DNA of 64,000 nt. Source: Microbacterium sp. EST19A. GTDB taxonomy: Bacteria > Actinomycetota > Actinomycetes > Actinomycetales > Microbacteriaceae. The notes beneath the pieces are model-generated. The model was not told the origin of the DNA. It saw only the letters and a program-made list of their open reading frames with translations, and did not search any database. Of the stretch, positions 4,825 to 60,889 are shown piece after piece. A program made the position numbers and the translations under genes. Location of the stretch: NCBI RefSeq assembly GCF_019969685.1, contig NZ_JAHXYZ010000001.1:1550001-1614000 (forward strand), read 5' to 3'. Every line of letters starts with the position of its first letter. Within the stretch, counting starts at the first letter, position 1.

Positions 4825-4847
4825 CAGGTGCACCCGCAGGACGACAC

Positions 4848-4890
4848 GCCAGATGTCGGACCGATTGTCCCGTATGGTCCGACATCTGGC
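4848..4890. repeat. Element A: perfect 15-bp inverted repeat between convergent genes
   Basis: Arms at 4848-4862 (GCCAGATGTCGGACC) and 4876-4890 are perfect reverse complements around a 13-nt loop. A further partial dyad, ATGTCGCCCGACAT, follows at 4891-4904, reusing the same word. The element sits between the end of the plus-strand acidic gene and the end of the minus-strand corA-like gene. It could act as a bidirectional terminator, although there is no T tract on either side. Confidence 0.8.
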
Positions 4891-4923
4891 ATGTCGCCCG
4901 ACATCTGTACCGGCCCCCGCCCG

Positions 4924-20195: not shown

Positions 20196-20298
20196 AAAGG
20201 CTTGCTATCTTTTCCGGTCAGCTCTAGAGTCAGACCACCACCCGCACCACAGCACTTCTGCACTGTTCCTTCGTCGCACGCTCACTGGAGATCCGTCC

Positions 20299-22011
20299 AT
20301 GTCGAAATCATTGCTTCGCACCGCTGTACCCTCTTCCCGACCTTCCCGTCGTGGCGTCCTCGCGGCTCTGACCGTCGCCGCGCTCATCGGCTCGCTCGCC
20401 GCCTGCACCTCGACGCCCACCCCGGCGGAGACGAACGAGGAGGTCGCCGTCGTCGACGGCGGCGAGCTCGTCATCGGCGCCGAGCAGGAGCCCGACTGCG
20501 CCGACTGGATCGCCACGTGCGGCGGCTCGATCTGGGGCACCTACGTCATGCAGATCCCGACCATGCCGGCCGTGTTCGAGACCCGTCTCGTCGACGACGA
20601 GTGGGTGCCGGTGCCGTCGGATCTCGTCACGGGCGAGCCGATCGCCGAGGTCGCCGATGACGGCACGCAGACCGTCACCTACGACATCAACCCGGAGGCC
20701 GTGTGGTCCGACGGTGAGCCCATCACCTCGGCCGACTTCGAGTACACCGCGCTGCAGATCCGCGACGGCGACGACATCTTCGACAAGACCGGCTACGACC
20801 GGATCACGGCCGTCGACGTCAGTGACCCGAAGAAGGCGGTCGTCACGCTCGACTCCGCCTACGCCGGATGGCGCACGCTGTTCAGCGTCTACGGCATCAT
20901 GCCCGCGCACATCCTCGAGGGCCAGGACCGCGGCGCGATGATGGCCGACGGCTACGACTTCAGCGGGGGACCGTGGAAGATCGAGAAGTGGACCCGCGGC
21001 ACGTCGGTCACGCTCGTGCCGAACGAGAACTACTGGGGCGAGAAGCCGCACCTCGACAAGGTGACCTTCCTCTTCCTCCCCGACACCACGGCCGCGTTCC
21101 AGGCGCTCAAGAGCGGACAGGTCAGCGTGCTCGCCCCGACCCCGCAGCTCGACGCGCTCACCCAGATCGAGGCCGGACTCCCCGGCATCAAGTCGCAGGT
21201 CGACGCTCGCAGCGGCAACCTCGAGGCGATCTGGCTGAACAACTCCGCAGCTCCCTTCGACTCGGTCGCCGTGCGTCAGGCGCTCGCCTACTCGATCGAC
21301 CGCGACGCCATCGTGAAGCGTCTCTTCGGCAGCCTCGGCGTCGACAAGGCGCAGCAGAGCTTCAACTCGCCCATGGTCGCGCCGTTCGCGTCGGACGACT
21401 TCTCGCAGTACACGCTCGACCTCGACAAGGTGGACGAGCTGATGGAGGGCGACGGCTGGAAGAAGAACGGCGATGACGTCTGGTCCAAGGGTGGCGAGAC
21501 GGCGACGTTCTCGATCAAGACCCTCGCCGGCAACAAGCGCCGCGACCTCACGGTGCAGGTGCTGCAGTCGCAGCTGGCGGATGCAGGGTTCGAGATGACG
21601 ATCGATCAGGTGACCCCGGCCGACCTGTTCGGCACGATCGCGCCGGAGGGCGACTTCCAGGCCGGCATCTGGGCGCTCGTCGACACGTTCCCGGACCCCA
21701 CGCTCAGCGCGACGTTCGCGTCGACGAACATCCCGAGCGACGCGAACGGATTCTCCGGCATCAACTTCTACCGCGCCGACATCCCCGGACTCGATGACCT
21801 GCTCACCCAGGTCGACAGCGAGATCGACGCGGATGCCCGGATCGCCGCCTCGAAGGAGGGCGACGCGCTGATCGCCGAGAACGTGCCGTCCCTGCCGCTT
21901 GACGCCGTGCCGAACGTGCTGCTGTGGAGCGAGAAGGTCGGCGGCCCGCTGCAGATCAACCCGATCGAGGGCCCGTTCTGGAACCTCGCCGAGTGGGGCC
22001 TCGCGGGCTGA
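20299..22011 (+). CDS. Peptide ABC transporter substrate-binding lipoprotein (SBP family 5)
   Basis: A 570-residue DppA/OppA-type binding protein. It starts with a basic stretch, a hydrophobic signal segment and a lipobox SLAAC (lipidated Cys36), followed by a Thr/Pro/Glu linker. The mature part has the family pattern WSDGEPITSADFEYT, FSGGPWKIEKW and VRQALAYSIDRDAIV. It captures oligopeptides or similar compounds outside the membrane for the permeases encoded next. A GGAG site precedes the ATG. It is the first gene of a five-gene dpp/opp-type operon. Confidence 0.92.
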   Translation: MSKSLLRTAVPSSRPSRRGVLAALTVAALIGSLAACTSTPTPAETNEEVAVVDGGELVIGAEQEPDCADWIATCGGSIWGTYVMQIPTMPAVFETRLVDDEWVPVPSDLVTGEPIAEVADDGTQTVTYDINPEAVWSDGEPITSADFEYTALQIRDGDDIFDKTGYDRITAVDVSDPKKAVVTLDSAYAGWRTLFSVYGIMPAHILEGQDRGAMMADGYDFSGGPWKIEKWTRGTSVTLVPNENYWGEKPHLDKVTFLFLPDTTAAFQALKSGQVSVLAPTPQLDALTQIEAGLPGIKSQVDARSGNLEAIWLNNSAAPFDSVAVRQALAYSIDRDAIVKRLFGSLGVDKAQQSFNSPMVAPFASDDFSQYTLDLDKVDELMEGDGWKKNGDDVWSKGGETATFSIKTLAGNKRRDLTVQVLQSQLADAGFEMTIDQVTPADLFGTIAPEGDFQAGIWALVDTFPDPTLSATFASTNIPSDANGFSGINFYRADIPGLDDLLTQVDSEIDADARIAASKEGDALIAENVPSLPLDAVPNVLLWSEKVGGPLQINPIEGPFWNLAEWGLAG

Positions 22012-25948: not shown

Positions 25949-26042
25949 CGTTCCGGTCGCACTTCCTGCCGCTCGAACGCGAGACAACCGGCACGAACTG
26001 CGACCGGAGCATCGTGCGCCGGCAGAAACTGCGACCGGAACG
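25949..26042. repeat. Element B: three-copy inverted/direct repeat in front of the dehydrogenase gene
   Basis: A 23-nt arm (25949-25971) beginning CGTTCCGGTCGCA reappears in reverse at 26020-26042 with two mismatches. A third copy in the same reverse orientation lies at 25989-26010. The right copy ends 22 nt before the dehydrogenase ATG. The word GTTCCGGTCGC is shared with element G at 60.8 kb. Confidence 0.85.
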
Positions 26043-26064: not shown

Positions 26065-27150
26065 ATGACAACCACCCACCGCATCGCCGTGATCGCCGGC
26101 GACGGCATCGGCACCGAGGTCATGCCCGAGGGGCTCCGTGTGCTGAAGGCCGCGGCATCCCGTTTCGACATCGCCCTCGAATTCACCGAGTTCGATTTCG
26201 CCAGCGCGAAGTACTGGCAAGAGCACGGGCAGATGCTGCCCGACGACTGGTTCGAGACGCTGCGCGGGTTCGACGCGATCTACTTCGGTGCGGTCGGCTG
26301 GCCCGAGGTCGTACCGGATCACGTGAGCCTGTGGGGGAGCCTGATCCAGTTCCGGCGCGCGTTCGACCAGTACGTGAACCTGCGGCCGGTCAGGCTCATG
26401 CCCGGTGTGGTGTCGCCGCTCGCCGGACGGTCACCGGGAGACATCGACTTCTGGGTCGTGCGCGAGAACACCGAGGGAGAGTACTCCTCGATCGGCGGCC
26501 GCATGTTCGAGGGCACCGACCGCGAGTTCGTGCTGCAGGAGACCGTGATGACCCGCACCGGCGTCGACCGGGTGCTGCGGTACGCCTACGACCTGGCCCA
26601 GCGCCGCGAGGCGAAGCACCTCACCTCGGCGACCAAGAGCAACGGCATCTCGATCTCGATGCCCTACTGGGACGAGCGCGTCGCCGCGGTCGGTGCCGAC
26701 TACCCCGACGTGCGGCGCGACCAGTTCCACATCGACATCCTCACCGCGAACTTCGTGCTGCACCCCGACTGGTTCGACGTGGTCGTGGCGAGCAACCTGT
26801 TCGGCGACATCCTGTCCGATCTCGGTCCCGCCTGCACCGGCACGATCGGCATCGCCCCGAGCGCCAACATCAACCCGGAGGGCGACTTCCCGAGTCTGTT
26901 CGAGCCCGTGCACGGCTCGGCGCCCGACATCGCCGGCCGCGGCATCGCGAACCCGATCGGACAGATCTGGTGCGGCGCCATGATGCTCGACCACCTCGGG
27001 CACGCGGATGCCGGTGCCGCCGTGCTCGCCGCGATCGAGTCGGTGCTCGCGCGGGGAGCGGATGCTGCGCCCTTCACCCCCGACCTCGGCGGCACGGCCA
27101 CGACGGTCGAGCTCGGTGCCGCGATCGCGGAGGCCGTCTCGGGGGTGTGA
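26065..27150 (+). CDS. Tartrate / D-malate dehydrogenase-like enzyme (isopropylmalate dehydrogenase family)
   Basis: A 361-residue beta-decarboxylating dehydrogenase. The sequence IAVIAGDGIGTEV opens the fold. FGAVGWPEVVPDHVSLWG and NLRPVRLMPGVVSPL are typical of the tartrate dehydrogenase/TtuC-DmlA subgroup rather than LeuB. Metal and substrate residues are present in ENTEGEYS, TKSNGISISMPYWDE (catalytic Lys) and SNLFGDILSDLGP. The likely reaction is NAD-dependent oxidation of D-malate, tartrate or a 3-alkylmalate. The start at MTTTHRIAV follows GGAAGGAA. Its link to the peptide transporter is positional only. Confidence 0.87.
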   Translation: MTTTHRIAVIAGDGIGTEVMPEGLRVLKAAASRFDIALEFTEFDFASAKYWQEHGQMLPDDWFETLRGFDAIYFGAVGWPEVVPDHVSLWGSLIQFRRAFDQYVNLRPVRLMPGVVSPLAGRSPGDIDFWVVRENTEGEYSSIGGRMFEGTDREFVLQETVMTRTGVDRVLRYAYDLAQRREAKHLTSATKSNGISISMPYWDERVAAVGADYPDVRRDQFHIDILTANFVLHPDWFDVVVASNLFGDILSDLGPACTGTIGIAPSANINPEGDFPSLFEPVHGSAPDIAGRGIANPIGQIWCGAMMLDHLGHADAGAAVLAAIESVLARGADAAPFTPDLGGTATTVELGAAIAEAVSGV

Positions 27151-27181: not shown

Positions 27182-27257
27182 GAACTTCGCAGAACGACGC
27201 GAACTTCGCAGGAATTCCGGGGTACGTCTGCGAAGTTCGTGCTGTTCTGCGAAGTTC
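27182..27257. repeat. Element C: nested double inverted repeat between convergent genes
   Basis: Outer arms GAACTTCGCAGAAC (27182-27195) and its complement (27244-27257) enclose inner arms CGAACTTCGCAG (27200-27211) and its complement (27228-27239). Together they can form a hairpin of about 30 bp with a small internal loop. A direct repeat CCGCGGCTCAGG occurs twice in the following 45 bp. The left half is 26/30 identical to element D at 32.9 kb. Confidence 0.85.
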
Positions 27258-32083: not shown

Positions 32084-32800
32084 TCACCGGGGAGCCCCGC
32101 CCACGGCCGCGGCGCGAGAGCCGGTCTGCGCCTGACTGCCCGAGCGATGGCCGTGCATGAACGCCCCGGCATCCGCCCCGCGACGGGCGCGCCCGCGTCG
32201 CGTCGTCATCCGGTCGACCGCGTCCTCCACCCGCTCGCGGCGGGAAGCGAGCACGAGCGCCGTGCCGGTGCCGGCCTCGTCGACGATCGTCTGTCGGCTG
32301 TCGCGGATACGACCGGCGGCACCGGCGGCGAAACCGCGGATGAAGCCACTGCGCGCACGGCGCCGGTCGCCCTCGGTGAACGGGCCGTAGGCGTCGCGAT
32401 GGAGCGCCCACCACGCGCGCATCGCCACCATCGCCTGGACTTCGAGGCTCGCGGTGAGCGTGCGGGCCTGCTGCACGTCGGACGCGTGGCCGACGAAGTA
32501 CAGAAGGGAACCCGCCCCTTCGGCGTGCAGCGGGCACACCGTGTCGAGCGCCAGGGCGATGCTGGCGCCGAGCTCTCGCAAGTCGCGAGCGTACGTGCCC
32601 GTGAAGACGATGCGTTCCTGGACGATCTCCTCACGCTCCTGCCCCAGGCGCCCGCGGCGCTCATCGATGCGCGCCTGTTCGATGCCGTACTTCACCATCA
32701 GGCGCTCGGCGTGCTCGGTGAGAGCCTCGGCCTCCTCCGGTGTGGTGCTCTCGGCCTTCGCCAGCAGCTTGGCGATCAGATCGAGTTTCGCGTCGGTCAT
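32084..32800 (-). CDS. DUF2786-domain protein
   Basis: A 238-residue protein. Residues 5-45 (IAKLLAKAESTTPEEAEALTEHAERLMVKYGI) are the DUF2786 helical domain. The middle part (residues 55-150) contains a conserved strand/helix section with LLYFVGHASDVQQARTL and MRAWWALHRDAYG. The C-terminal 70 residues are Arg/Ala-rich and probably disordered. Function is unknown; related phage and actinobacterial proteins may bind nucleic acid. The start at MTDAKLDL follows AGGGGACGG; an upstream in-frame ATG at 32848 lacks such a site. The 227 bp between this gene's end and the tetR-like gene's end hold nothing I can support. Confidence 0.75.
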   Translation of the reverse strand: MTDAKLDLIAKLLAKAESTTPEEAEALTEHAERLMVKYGIEQARIDERRGRLGQEREEIVQERIVFTGTYARDLRELGASIALALDTVCPLHAEGAGSLLYFVGHASDVQQARTLTASLEVQAMVAMRAWWALHRDAYGPFTEGDRRRARSGFIRGFAAGAAGRIRDSRQTIVDEAGTGTALVLASRRERVEDAVDRMTTRRGRARRGADAGAFMHGHRSGSQAQTGSRAAAVGGAPR

Positions 32801-32930
32801 GCCGTCCCCTTTGTTCGTGGTGATCGCATCCTGCGCGGGGGTACTCACATTCGAGGGGTGTTTTTCAGGGGCTGTGGGGAAGTCTGTTCTTGCGCGTGCT
32901 GTGGAGGAGGGGTCGCGCGTGAGAAAACCC

Positions 32931-32993
32931 CGCAGAACGACAGAGACTTCGCAGGAATTCAGCTGATTCCTGCGAAGTCTCTGTCGTTCTGCG
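32931..32993. repeat. Element D: perfect 28-bp inverted repeat
   Basis: Arms at 32931-32958 and 32966-32993 are perfect reverse complements separated by 7 nt (TCAGCTG). The arm contains CGCAGAACGAC and ACTTCGCAGGAAT. The left half is 26/30 identical to the left half of element C, with the differing central four bases changed on both arms so that pairing is kept. It lies between two minus-strand genes. Confidence 0.95.
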
Positions 32994-33020
32994 AGATTCG
33001 TGTCGTCCCCGCGCGAACCC

Positions 33021-33167
33021 TCAGCCGGGGAGGAGGGTGAACAGGGTCGCGCCGCCGCCGCCGAGGATCAGCGCGATGATGACCGTCCACGCGATGATCC
33101 GGATGCGGCGGTTGCGGGGCTCGCCCAGGTCGCCGTAGTCGTCGTCGGGCTTGCTCAGGTCACTCAT
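33021..33167 (-). CDS. Small single-pass membrane protein (48 residues)
   Basis: A short gene starting with ATG behind a good AGAGGAAA site 6 nt upstream. The product MSDLSKPDDDYGDLGEPRNR has an acidic N-terminus, a basic stop-transfer cluster (RNRRIR), then one membrane helix (IIAWTVIIALILGGGGATLF). It lies 55 nt upstream of purL on the opposite side of its stop, on the same strand after purL in the direction of transcription. Similar short proteins follow purL in related actinobacteria only by my impression; function is unknown. Confidence 0.7.
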   Translation of the reverse strand: MSDLSKPDDDYGDLGEPRNRRIRIIAWTVIIALILGGGGATLFTLLPG

Positions 33168-33222
33168 GCGTTTCCTCTCGTGGAGACCCGCACTGAGCGA
33201 GCCTGGCGAGTCGAAGTGTCGC

Positions 33223-35559
33223 TCAACGACCGGGAGTCGCGGGCTCCGTGACGGTGGGTCCGAAGTATGACGGCAACGTGGCGTTCGAGCGCTCGCGCAG
33301 CTCGGCGACCGACACCGTGAAGACGTCCTGCACCTCGAGCTGCGGCTCGCTGTCGGTCACGCCGATGCGGATGACCGGATAGTTGCGGCCCTCGCACAGG
33401 CCGCGGAACTTCACGTCGTCCTCGCGCGGCACGGTCACGATGACGCGACCGGTCGACTCCGAGAACAGAGCGGATGCCGCGTCGACGCCGTCGCGTTCGA
33501 TGATCTCGTTCAGCCACACGCGGGCGCCGACGCCGAAGCGGGAGACGCCCTCGGCGAGGGCCTGGCCGAGGCCGCCCTCGGAGAGGTCGTGCGCCGAGGA
33601 GATCAGCCACTCGTCGCGGGCGGCCGAGAGCAGGCCGGCAAGGCGCTTCTCGCCTGCCAGGTCCACGACAGGGGGGCGTCCGCCGAGGTGCTGGTGCACG
33701 ACCTCGGCCCACGCCGAACCCGAGAGCTCGGTCGAGGTGGTGCCGAGCAGGTAGATGTTCTGACCGATGTCCTGCCACCCCGACGGGATGCGGCGCGAGA
33801 CGTCGTCGATGATGCCGAGCACGCCCACGAGGGGGGTCGGGTGGATCGGCACGTCGCCGGTCTGGTTGTAGAACGAGACGTTGCCGCCGGTGACCGGGGT
33901 GCCCAGTTCGTAGCATCCGTCGGCCAGGCCGTCGACCGTCTGCCCGAACTGCCACATGACCTCGGGGTTCTCTGGCGAGCCGAAGTTCAGGCAGTCGGTG
34001 ATCGCGGTCGGCACGGCGCCCGTGACGGCGACGTTGCGGTACGCCTCGGCCAGGGCGATCTGCGCACCGGCGTACGGGTCGAGCTGGCTGTAGCGGCCGT
34101 TGGCATCGGTCGAGATCGCGAAGCCGAGACCGGACTCCTCGTCGACGCGGATCATGCCGGCGTCGTCGGGGAAGCTCAGTGCGGTGTTGCCGAGCACGTA
34201 GTAGTCGTACTGGTTCGTGATCCAGCTCGTGTCGGCCAGGTTCGGCGATGCGACCAGATCGAGGAACTGCTCGCGCAGAACGTCGGGCTCCGAAGAGCGG
34301 GGCAGGTTCTCCGCAGCATCCGCCTGGAGTGCGTCGATCCACGTCGGGTACGCGACCGGGCGGTCGTAGACCGGGCCGTCGACCGCGACGGTCGAGGGGT
34401 CGACGTCGACGATGCGCTCACCCTGCCAGTCGATGATGAGGCGTCCGTCGCCGGTGACCTCGCCGAGCACGGAGGTCTCGACCTCCCACTTGTTCACGAC
34501 GTCCATGAAGGCGTCGAGCTTCTCGGGCGCGACGATGGCCATCATGCGCTCCTGCGACTCCGACATGAGGATCTCCTCGGCCGTGAGCGTGGGGTCGCGC
34601 AGCAGCACGTTGTCGAGCGAGACCTTCATGCCGCTGTTGCCGTTGGCCGCGAGCTCGCTGGTCGCGCAGGAGATGCCCGCGGCACCGAGGTCCTGGATCG
34701 CCTCGACGAGCTCGCCGCGGTACAGCTCGAGGCAGCACTCGATGAGCACCTTCTCGGCGAAGGGGTCGCCGACCTGCACCGCGGGGCGCTTGGTCGGGCC
34801 GGTGGAATCGAAGGAATCGGATGCCAGGATGCTCGCGCCGCCGATGCCGTCGCCACCGGTGCGGGCACCGAAGAGCACGACCTTGTTGCCGACGCCGGTC
34901 GCATTCGCGAGCTTGAGGTCTTCGTGGCGCAGCACGCCCACCGCGAGCGCGTTGACCAGCGGGTTCGCCTGGTAGACGGCGTCGAACACGGTCTCGCCGC
35001 CGATGTTCGGAAGCCCCAGGCAGTTTCCGTAGAAGCTGATGCCGCTCGTCACGCCGTGCACGACGCGGGCGGTGTCGGGGTGGTCGATCGCGCCGAAGCG
35101 CAGGGCGTCCATGACCGCGACCGGGCGGGCGCCCATCGAGATGATGTCGCGGACGATGCCGCCGACGCCGGTGGCCGCGCCCTGGAACGGCTCGATGAAC
35201 GACGGGTGGTTGTGCGACTCGGCCTTGAAGGTGACGGCCCAGCCCTCGCCGACGTCGATGACGCCCGCGTTCTGGCCCATGCCGACCATCAGGCGTTCCT
35301 TCATCTCGTCGGAGACCTTCTGGCTGAAGCGGCGCAGGTAGTTCTTCGACGACTTGTAGGAGCAGTGCTCCGACCACATGACGGAGTACATGGCCAGCTC
35401 GCCCGAGGTGGGGCGGCGGCCGAGGATCTCCTTGATGCGCGCGTACTCGTCGTCCTTCAGGCCGAGGGCGCCGTACGGCTGCTCCTTCTCCGGCGTCGCG
35501 ATCGCGTTGTCGACGGAGTCGGGGACGTGCTTGTGGACAGGTGCAGGGGCGGTGGTCAC
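33223..35559 (-). CDS. purL: Phosphoribosylformylglycinamidine synthase, large subunit PurL
   Basis: A 778-residue FGAM synthase II of the small-PurL type, which works with PurQ and PurS (not in the window). It converts FGAR and glutamine-derived ammonia to FGAM in purine synthesis, using ATP. Recognisable parts include [39 protein letters not shown] and [16 protein letters not shown] in the first half, then the second AIR-synthase-like half with GKPPVVDL-type and [16 protein letters not shown] motifs. The start at 35559 (GTG) is preferred to 35565 because GGAG then lies 5 nt upstream. Confidence 0.95.
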
Positions 35560-40048: not shown

Positions 40049-40141
40049 GGCGTGCACAACTCCGCAGAAGCACTGCGTATCCGGCCCGAATCAGGGTGTT
40101 TCGGACCCTCCGGCGCATGTTCTTGCGGAGTCGTGCACGCC
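40049..40141. repeat. Element H: complex inverted repeat between convergent genes
   Basis: Arms GGCGTGCACAACTCCGCA (40049-40066) and its complement with one G:T-type mismatch (40124-40141) enclose a second, weaker dyad (GGCCCGAA / TTCGGACC). The word AACTCCGCAGAA resembles AACTTCGCAGAA of element C. It separates the ends of the MFS gene and the membrane-protein gene. Confidence 0.75.
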
Positions 40142-57141: not shown

Positions 57142-57227
57142 GTGACGAATCACGGAGGTCGTGACGAATCGCGGAGACTTTTCCACGAATGTGTCCGTGA
57201 TTCGTCATCGTCTCCGCGAATCGTCAC
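57142..57227. repeat. Element E: four-copy alternating repeat between convergent genes
   Basis: Word a, GTGACGAATCACGGAG (57142-57157), and word b, GTGACGAATCGCGGAGAC (57161-57178), are followed by the reverse copies a' (57194-57207) and b' (57210-57227, one mismatch). Words a and b differ mainly by A/G at one site, and a' and b' show the matching difference. The element separates the ends of the BKACE gene and the broken reductase gene. Confidence 0.85.
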
Positions 57228-60784: not shown

Positions 60785-60871
60785 GTTCCGGTCGCGAAAA
60801 CGGCTGCATCCGGGCCTGAGATGCGGCCGATTTCGCGACCGGAACCGGGGCAGGCGGCCGTTTTCGCGACC
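60785..60871. repeat. Element G: three-copy inverted repeat between operon genes
   Basis: A 23-nt arm starting GTTCCGGTCGCGAAAACGGC (60785-60807) reappears in reverse at 60823-60845 with two mismatches, and again in the same reverse orientation at 60854-60871. It lies between the binding-protein and GH76 genes of one operon. The word GTTCCGGTCGC is shared with element B. Confidence 0.85.
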
Positions 60872-60889
60872 TGAAGAGCGGATGCCGCG

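Follow-up and report, generated by a model that had tools for sequence, protein, structure and literature searches.

A perfect palindrome behind purL in a Microbacterium genome is one of fifteen word-array elements that may end transcription from both sides

Results

Element D at the purL locus

Element D (32931..32993, with no strand assigned) lies near the middle of the window, the whole 64-kb stretch of Microbacterium sp. EST19A DNA that was analysed. On the sequence its two 28-nt arms, 32931-32958 and 32966-32993, pair perfectly across a 7-nt loop, as an earlier note on this DNA had described, and they extend to 33 nt at 94% pairing. Words start with CGCAG at 32931 and 32950 and, inverted, with CTGCG at 32970 and 32989, so that the register is 19 bp on both sides. 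A partial third inverted unit on the minus strand (32994..33008; AGATTCGTGTCGTCC against the unit CTGCGARGTTCGTGTCGTT, compared by eye and unscored) continues the 19-bp register. The same note had called D the best member of its palindrome set, rightly so: it is the top scorer among 40 palindromes with a score of at least 15 in 417 intergenic regions, drawn from an 854-kb sample of this genome, and one first-order Markov shuffle of the same 417 regions gave none.

The genes around D are read from the minus strand. PurL (33223..35559), with AIRS, AIRS_C and FGAR-AT linker domains, is 95% identical in its best segment to Microbacterium sp. 3J1. Next comes a 48-residue ORF (33021..33167) with a hydrophobic stretch in its C-terminal half and no Pfam match, whose stop lies 27 nt from D, and then a DUF2786/DUF7168 protein (32084..32848), the next gene downstream of D. 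Visual comparison showed ORFs resembling the 48-residue one downstream of purL at several Microbacterium loci. Upstream of this ORF, 33170-33240 holds a minus-strand stretch GTTGAGCGACACTTCGACTCGCC...CTCGCTCAGTGCG; related words (GCTCAACGAC in 9 intergenic regions, GCGAGACGAA in 10) form another repeat family of this genome. Long palindromes unrelated to D occur downstream of purL in other species at 13 of 80 loci, starting within about 400 nt of the end of the purL match. No target duplication was obvious by eye in the flanks of D.

On the minus strand D folds as a stable hairpin, at -89.3 kcal/mol for 123 nt (z -12.2). It is followed by GGGGTTTTCTC, including TTTT, and the site is terminator-like in a simple scan; the GGGGUUUUCUC after the hairpin is partly paired in the predicted fold. 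D itself could be an intrinsic terminator, with a T-rich tail that is arguable.

Other word palindromes in the window

The window contains seven word palindromes counting D, none assigned to a strand. At least eight elements of this style had been claimed, of which the eighth was not identified; the element letters other than C and D are our guess at the earlier naming. Between convergent genes lie element A (4842..4896), built on the word CCGACATCTG with a second inverted copy 19 bp on (to about 4908), element E (40049..40141), an inverted pair of GGCGTGCACAACTCCGCA outside the lag-19 and lag-31 set, and element G (57142..57227), with the word GTGACGAATC in a 19-bp register. Element B (25949..26042) carries the word TTCCGGTCGCASTTNNTGCC once forward and twice inverted, at spacings of 39 and 31 bp, and has orthologues in the genomes G229 and G005, and in G246 with the inner half switched. 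Element H (60785..60875) shares with B the outer half-word GTTCCGGTCGC, the 31-bp register and the 59-nt inner span, and carries the inner half GAAAACGGCTGC.

Element C (27182..27257), also between convergent genes, is of the D type: GAACTTCGCAG stands at 27182 and 27201 and inverted at 27228 and 27247, in a 19-bp register, and G246 has its orthologue. B and C flank an Iso_dh family gene on the plus strand (26065..27150), isopropylmalate dehydrogenase-like and presumably leuB. Counted by eye, the left half of D matches C at 26 of 30 positions (27188-27217 against 32931-32960), as had been stated. The further claim that the differing bases changed on both arms, with pairing preserved, is only partly right, because C itself is imperfectly paired there (left GACGCGAAC, right AGCACGAAC); D is therefore not simply C with compensated changes.

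Copy number and spread of the words

A genome-wide search, proposed in the earlier note, did find further copies. BLAST with D returned ten more sites, aligned over 45-66 nt at 70-81% identity, plus short chance-like matches. The 24-nt D word has 14 forward and 11 reverse matches at three or fewer mismatches (reversed control, 0 and 0), which we grouped into 15 D-type elements, 14 of them with an inverted partner. At the same threshold the B word has 27 forward and 33 reverse matches in 4.45 Mb (control, 2 and 0); they fall into 27 groups, 20 of which are arrays of two to four words, and 53 of the 60 matches lie within arrays. The D copies had seemed locally clustered by eye, but the clustering is not significant: along two contigs, adjacent gaps below 100 kb number 6 against 4.6 expected for D (p 0.26) and 12 against 10.4 for B (p 0.24).

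When this genome and 37 relatives were searched with the D element, matches with E no higher than 0.01 came from this genome and, weakly, from G013 alone; the shorter D word, with mismatches, is also found in the closer relatives G229 and G246. The exact core GGTCGCAGTTNNTGCC has 15 and 14 copies here and occurs once each in three others of the 150 family genomes, this one included. Counts of GGTCGCASTTNNTGCC are 22 in G229, 43 in G240, 11 in G005, 1 in G246 and 0 in G279, and those of the D word, in the same order, 19, 0, 0, 16 and 0. The words differ between related species and the layout recurs.

Three side observations concern repeats more broadly. Four D-type elements of G229 (contigs C31, C53, C65 and C102) are found no further than about 550 bases from the start of their contig, which may mean that the assembly breaks at the palindromes or at repeats close by. 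CGGATGCCGC is over-represented in intergenic DNA of this genome, in 23 regions against 1.4 expected (the window plus L019-L058 and L179-L198), and CCGGCATCCA in that of G013, in 21 regions against 0.3 (L139-L158).

A fixed register with unrelated words

The arrays consist of one word facing inward from both sides at a rigid spacing, 19 bp in the D type and 31 bp in the B type. In B arrays the words lie at 0 and 31 and, inverted, at 70 and 101. All 17 same-strand neighbour pairs are spaced 31 bp; of the 16 pairs in which a forward word is followed by an inverted one, 14 are spaced 39 bp, one 38 and one 70; and the inverted-then-forward order is absent among the 60 matches. The central linkers are randomised, with an identity of 0.308 against 0.286 when shuffled. 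In the relatives, where we counted spacings from a listing and a shorter core turns 39 into 35, G229 has 31 in 4/4 and 35 in 5/5 cases and G005 has 31 in 1/1 and 35 in 2/2. G240 has 31 bp between same-strand words in only 3 of 7 cases (the others 39, 40, 40 and 50) and, between inverted words, 35 in 7 of 11 and 36 in 4 of 11. At G240:C31:1768-1902 the B word occurs four times in direct orientation only, at spacings of 39-40 bp. In the D type the word repeats every 19 bp and inverted partners are 39 or 40 bp apart; the exceptions are a spacing of 42 (L005) and two of 59, the latter longer by roughly one register step.

The 19-bp register extends beyond the genus. An exact 8-nt direct repeat at lag 19 is present in 20 of 218 palindrome halves from 109 Micrococcales palindromes, a count that takes both halves of each palindrome and includes related elements of this genome; shuffles gave 0, and any other lag from 9 to 35 is seen in at most 3 halves. 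Lag-19 runs of at least 8 occur in 14 palindromes from Microbacterium, Cryobacterium, Leucobacter, Pseudoclavibacter, Rathayibacter, Brevibacterium and Sinomonas, and their words are unrelated. Arthrobacter ERGS1:01 has two lag-19 elements in 50 kb, one of them between the purL 3' end and a facing gene, and lags 17 and 34 exceed lag 19 there owing to one tandem repeat. We found one lag-19 element in 200 kb of G023, and no lag-19 excess in G013 (400 kb), G033 (200 kb) or Arthrobacter StoSoilB13 (350 kb), although long palindromes with shared words are present in the last. In coding sequence, lags divisible by three were set aside as protein repeats. The TCGAGCTTGTCGA-type palindromes of Arthrobacter ERGS1:01 (L389:16434-16483 and 20280-20382) look like a different intergenic repeat.

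We do not claim a motif common to the genera. A set of 45 hand-picked arms gave a cGAG..gtCgc motif above 8 mononucleotide shuffles. In a test on 69 palindromes, reduced to 62 after duplicate removal, the excess was modest at width 11 (48.1 against 32.6-43.2 in 12 dinucleotide shuffles) and nil at width 8 (33.4 against up to 35.2). The idea of variable words in a conserved architecture, put forward from the window, turns out to be real, genome-wide and valid beyond the genus, but it covers several word families and not one. What is kept is the word, its orientation and the register (19 or 31 bp), and the register is absent from the earlier description.

Position at gene ends and tails

For the B and D-type elements, gene context was taken from our own simple gene caller. 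The B elements lie in 11 convergent, 8 tandem and 0 divergent regions (n=19), each at most 55 nt from a stop codon, and the D-type elements in 5 convergent, 7 tandem and 3 divergent regions (n=15), 12 of the 15 within 45 nt of a stop. The background comprises 89 convergent, 414 tandem and 186 divergent regions (n=689). Two or more words are present in 13 of 88 convergent regions and in 8 of 567 others, in a test that used words we had chosen from this genome.

Compact hairpins were not found beside arrays, in 0 of 13 convergent regions against 18 of 75 without an array (p 0.04) and in 0 of 8 other regions against 50 of 559 (p 0.48); here hairpins that overlap words are omitted by design and an array leaves little room for a hairpin. 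Behind the inner word pair, the B tail holds 0.81 T per 10 (16 elements), compared with 2.84 for the compact hairpins. By its tail, B is not an ordinary intrinsic terminator. The D-type tail has 2.46 T of 10, largely letters of the next word.

Constraint on words and on pairing

Where flanking genes identify the site, changes fall on 14 of 180 word positions, 28 of 76 linker positions and 47 of 174 flank positions, in three comparisons at two sites. Element B shows 0/60, 8/30 and 13/57 changes in words, linkers and flanks against G229, and 11/60, 14/30 and 24/57 against G005; for element C against G246 they are 3/60, 6/16 and 10/60. We prefer this comparison to a larger, biased set that agrees with it (20/320, 33/120 and 133/640), in which the relatives' loci were found via one exact word and 4 of the 8 usable pairs have one scored word. 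In that set L199 and L223 appear twice, a ninth pair (L275/L312) has no scored word, and L210/L340, with 14 of the 20 word changes, aligned poorly.

The inner word pairs of B do not covary: they match at 322 of 400 positions, against 322.9 with shuffled partners, in 16 of the 19 aligned elements (L200, L222 and L223, with no clear inner pair, were omitted). Their NN positions mismatch freely, in 10 of 32 cases against 12.9 expected. In B, the word is constrained and the pairing is not.

The D-type elements behave in part differently. Their inner arm half, a split picked after looking, covaries here (p 0.0006), in G229 (p 0.0044) and in G246 (p 0.041), and their outer half behaves like B, with no covariation; over the whole arm, p is 0.11, 0.05 and 0.20, respectively. 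The samples were 14 of the 15 own elements (L241 is partnerless), 11 from G229 and 10 from G246, some with weak partners and some mutual orthologues. The proposal that structure is under selection is partly supported, by the inner half of the D-type arm in three genomes, though not by the whole arm or by B.

The D word usually reads ACACGAAC. The D site has an orthologue in G229 whose two arms read AGAAAC and ACGAAC; here both arms read AGAGAC. The comparison, which spans few genomes, suggests that one arm may have taken over the variant of the other by quasipalindrome template switching, a process that creates and mends hairpins according to PMC8794818.

The words may also change in halves. 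G229 and G005 have retained the B word at the site upstream of the Iso_dh gene, where G246 carries CGTTCCTGTCGCAATATGTCA, in which the outer half is kept, with one base different, and the inner half is changed in both arms. The pattern GTTCCNGTCGCRATATGTC (two or fewer mismatches) has 12 copies in G246, among them four inverted pairs spaced exactly 42 bp, and 0-2 copies per genome in the five others searched. Element H combines the B outer half with yet another inner half. In G279 the B site lacks an intact array, yet it is not a clean empty site.

Discussion

We tentatively favour, at somewhat short of an even chance, the reading that D is one of 15 word-array palindromes that would end transcription from both sides, through a predicted protein reading the words as DNA. 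The arrays occupy places at which terminators are expected. That the words are read as DNA is suggested by the B type, because it has no T-tail, no pairing constraint, and words and register kept over randomised linkers. The register would reflect adjacent protein protomers on the DNA, and the inward-facing word pairs could form a two-sided roadblock to RNA polymerase or recruit an activity that ends the transcript. D-type elements probably act as RNA hairpins too, because their inner arm half covaries, and D may have become perfect when one arm templated the other. Several points speak against this reading of the words as DNA: the D-type inner covariation fits a hairpin, D on its minus strand is terminator-like and folds with z -12, divergent regions hold 3 of the 15 D elements, the absence of compact hairpins beside arrays is partly by design, no motif common to the genera was established, the 31-bp register is often not kept in G240, and some genomes are without a lag-19 excess.

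The main alternative, to which we give serious weight while holding it below even, is that no DNA-binding factor is involved and the elements are RNA-hairpin terminators working in both directions. Pairing selection, or template switching from arm to arm, would keep the arms matched, and occasional copying of terminators to other gene ends would make the words recur. Their gene-end position, the fold of D (z -12) with its short T-run on one side, and the inner arm covariation of the D type all agree with this, as do the changes on both arms at the C/T/G position when orthologous D-type elements are compared and the presence of arrays where compact hairpins are absent (overlapping ones being omitted by design). 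Hairpins as such leave the B type unexplained, where the arms do not covary, NN positions mismatch in 10 of 32 cases against 12.9 expected, and T-tails, present in this genome's compact hairpins, are missing; a hairpin could also do without a fixed 31-bp register over randomised linkers and without additional outer words.

The elements could also be remnants or non-autonomous copies of mobile elements (MITE- or REP-like), with those behind stop codons the likeliest to survive. This would account for families that are clade-limited and patchy, as the GGTCGCASTTNNTGCC and D word counts in G229, G240, G005, G246 and G279 are, and harmful insertions would explain why divergent regions are avoided. 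We nevertheless consider it improbable: linkers are randomised while words and spacing are kept, words at orthologous sites change more slowly than linkers do, a search of 24 genomes found no Y1 transposase, and one D-type element has no convincing plasmid or phage match. Sites of a nucleoid-organising or segregation protein, placed where no promoter is disturbed, would share the word-level constraint, the rigid register and the inward-facing arrays; the lack of significant clustering along the two contigs (p 0.26 for D, 0.24 for B) and the proximity to stop codons, which points to transcript ends, make such sites very unlikely.

If the arrays are indeed read as DNA, transcripts would be ended at gene ends by a dedicated protein with a fast-changing dialect, and the co-evolution of such a factor with tens of genomic sites could be traced across close species. 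A wider claim, which we think rather unlikely, is that Micrococcales transcript ends are punctuated by arrays of long asymmetric words in a 19- or 31-bp register with a dedicated, predicted two-sided roadblock protein, and that its specificity, and the dialect with it, changes in halves, the outer GTTCCGGTCGC being kept and the inner half swapped at many sites together. Even if the elements are plain terminators, a register of 19 or 31 bp with unrelated words across genera is unaccounted for by the repeat families compared here.

Comparison with known systems

The earlier note had asked about known repeat families and ordinary terminators. The 64-kb window has no Rfam match at gathering score, and one D-type element compared with plasmids (best E 5) and phages (best E 0.5) gave no convincing match, so that a mobile origin by similarity was dropped after these weak matches. 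Our literature search, thin in its coverage of subscription papers, found no description of such arrays. No Y1 transposase was found either; the B tail is atypical of an intrinsic terminator, and D could itself be one.

REP/BIME elements are short palindromes between genes, specific to a species and combined in direct and inverted orientation close to gene ends, with a GTAG-type signature. The arrays described here are likewise short intergenic palindromes near gene ends. They differ in that no GTAG-type signature was noticed, copies, though dispersed, are few and number in the tens (15 D-type elements, 27 B sites), the 19/31-bp register is rigid, and the B arms do not covary. REP/BIME with RAYT was rejected, as the Y1_Tnp transposase (PF01797) is absent from all 24 genomes searched (this one and 23 others), with 5 of 14 control genomes positive. 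The RepRanger report gives 5,512 putative REPs in Arthrobacter livingstonensis, by its own definition (PMC12306157). That count may include some arrays of the kind described here.

Intrinsic terminators resemble the arrays in gene-end position and convergent enrichment, and D folds strongly with TTTT on one side; B departs from them in being T-poor behind the inner stem, with several spaced words in a fixed register and no covariation. DNA uptake sequences (DUS/USS), which are used as inverted-repeat terminators, are short species-dialect words, also found as inverted pairs at gene ends, in hundreds to thousands of copies. The B word is longer, stands two to four per array, and has 60 matches (three or fewer mismatches) in 4.45 Mb; DUS/USS was rejected by this copy number.

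Tus-Ter, TTF-I, Reb1 and mTERF are polar roadblocks, with long asymmetric words at transcript or fork ends. The present arrays differ from these in having several words in fixed register per site and a factor that is only predicted. What marks a protein-roadblock array, word-level constraint together with a fixed register, is found here, and that bound proteins impede RNA polymerase is stated in PMC13082048.
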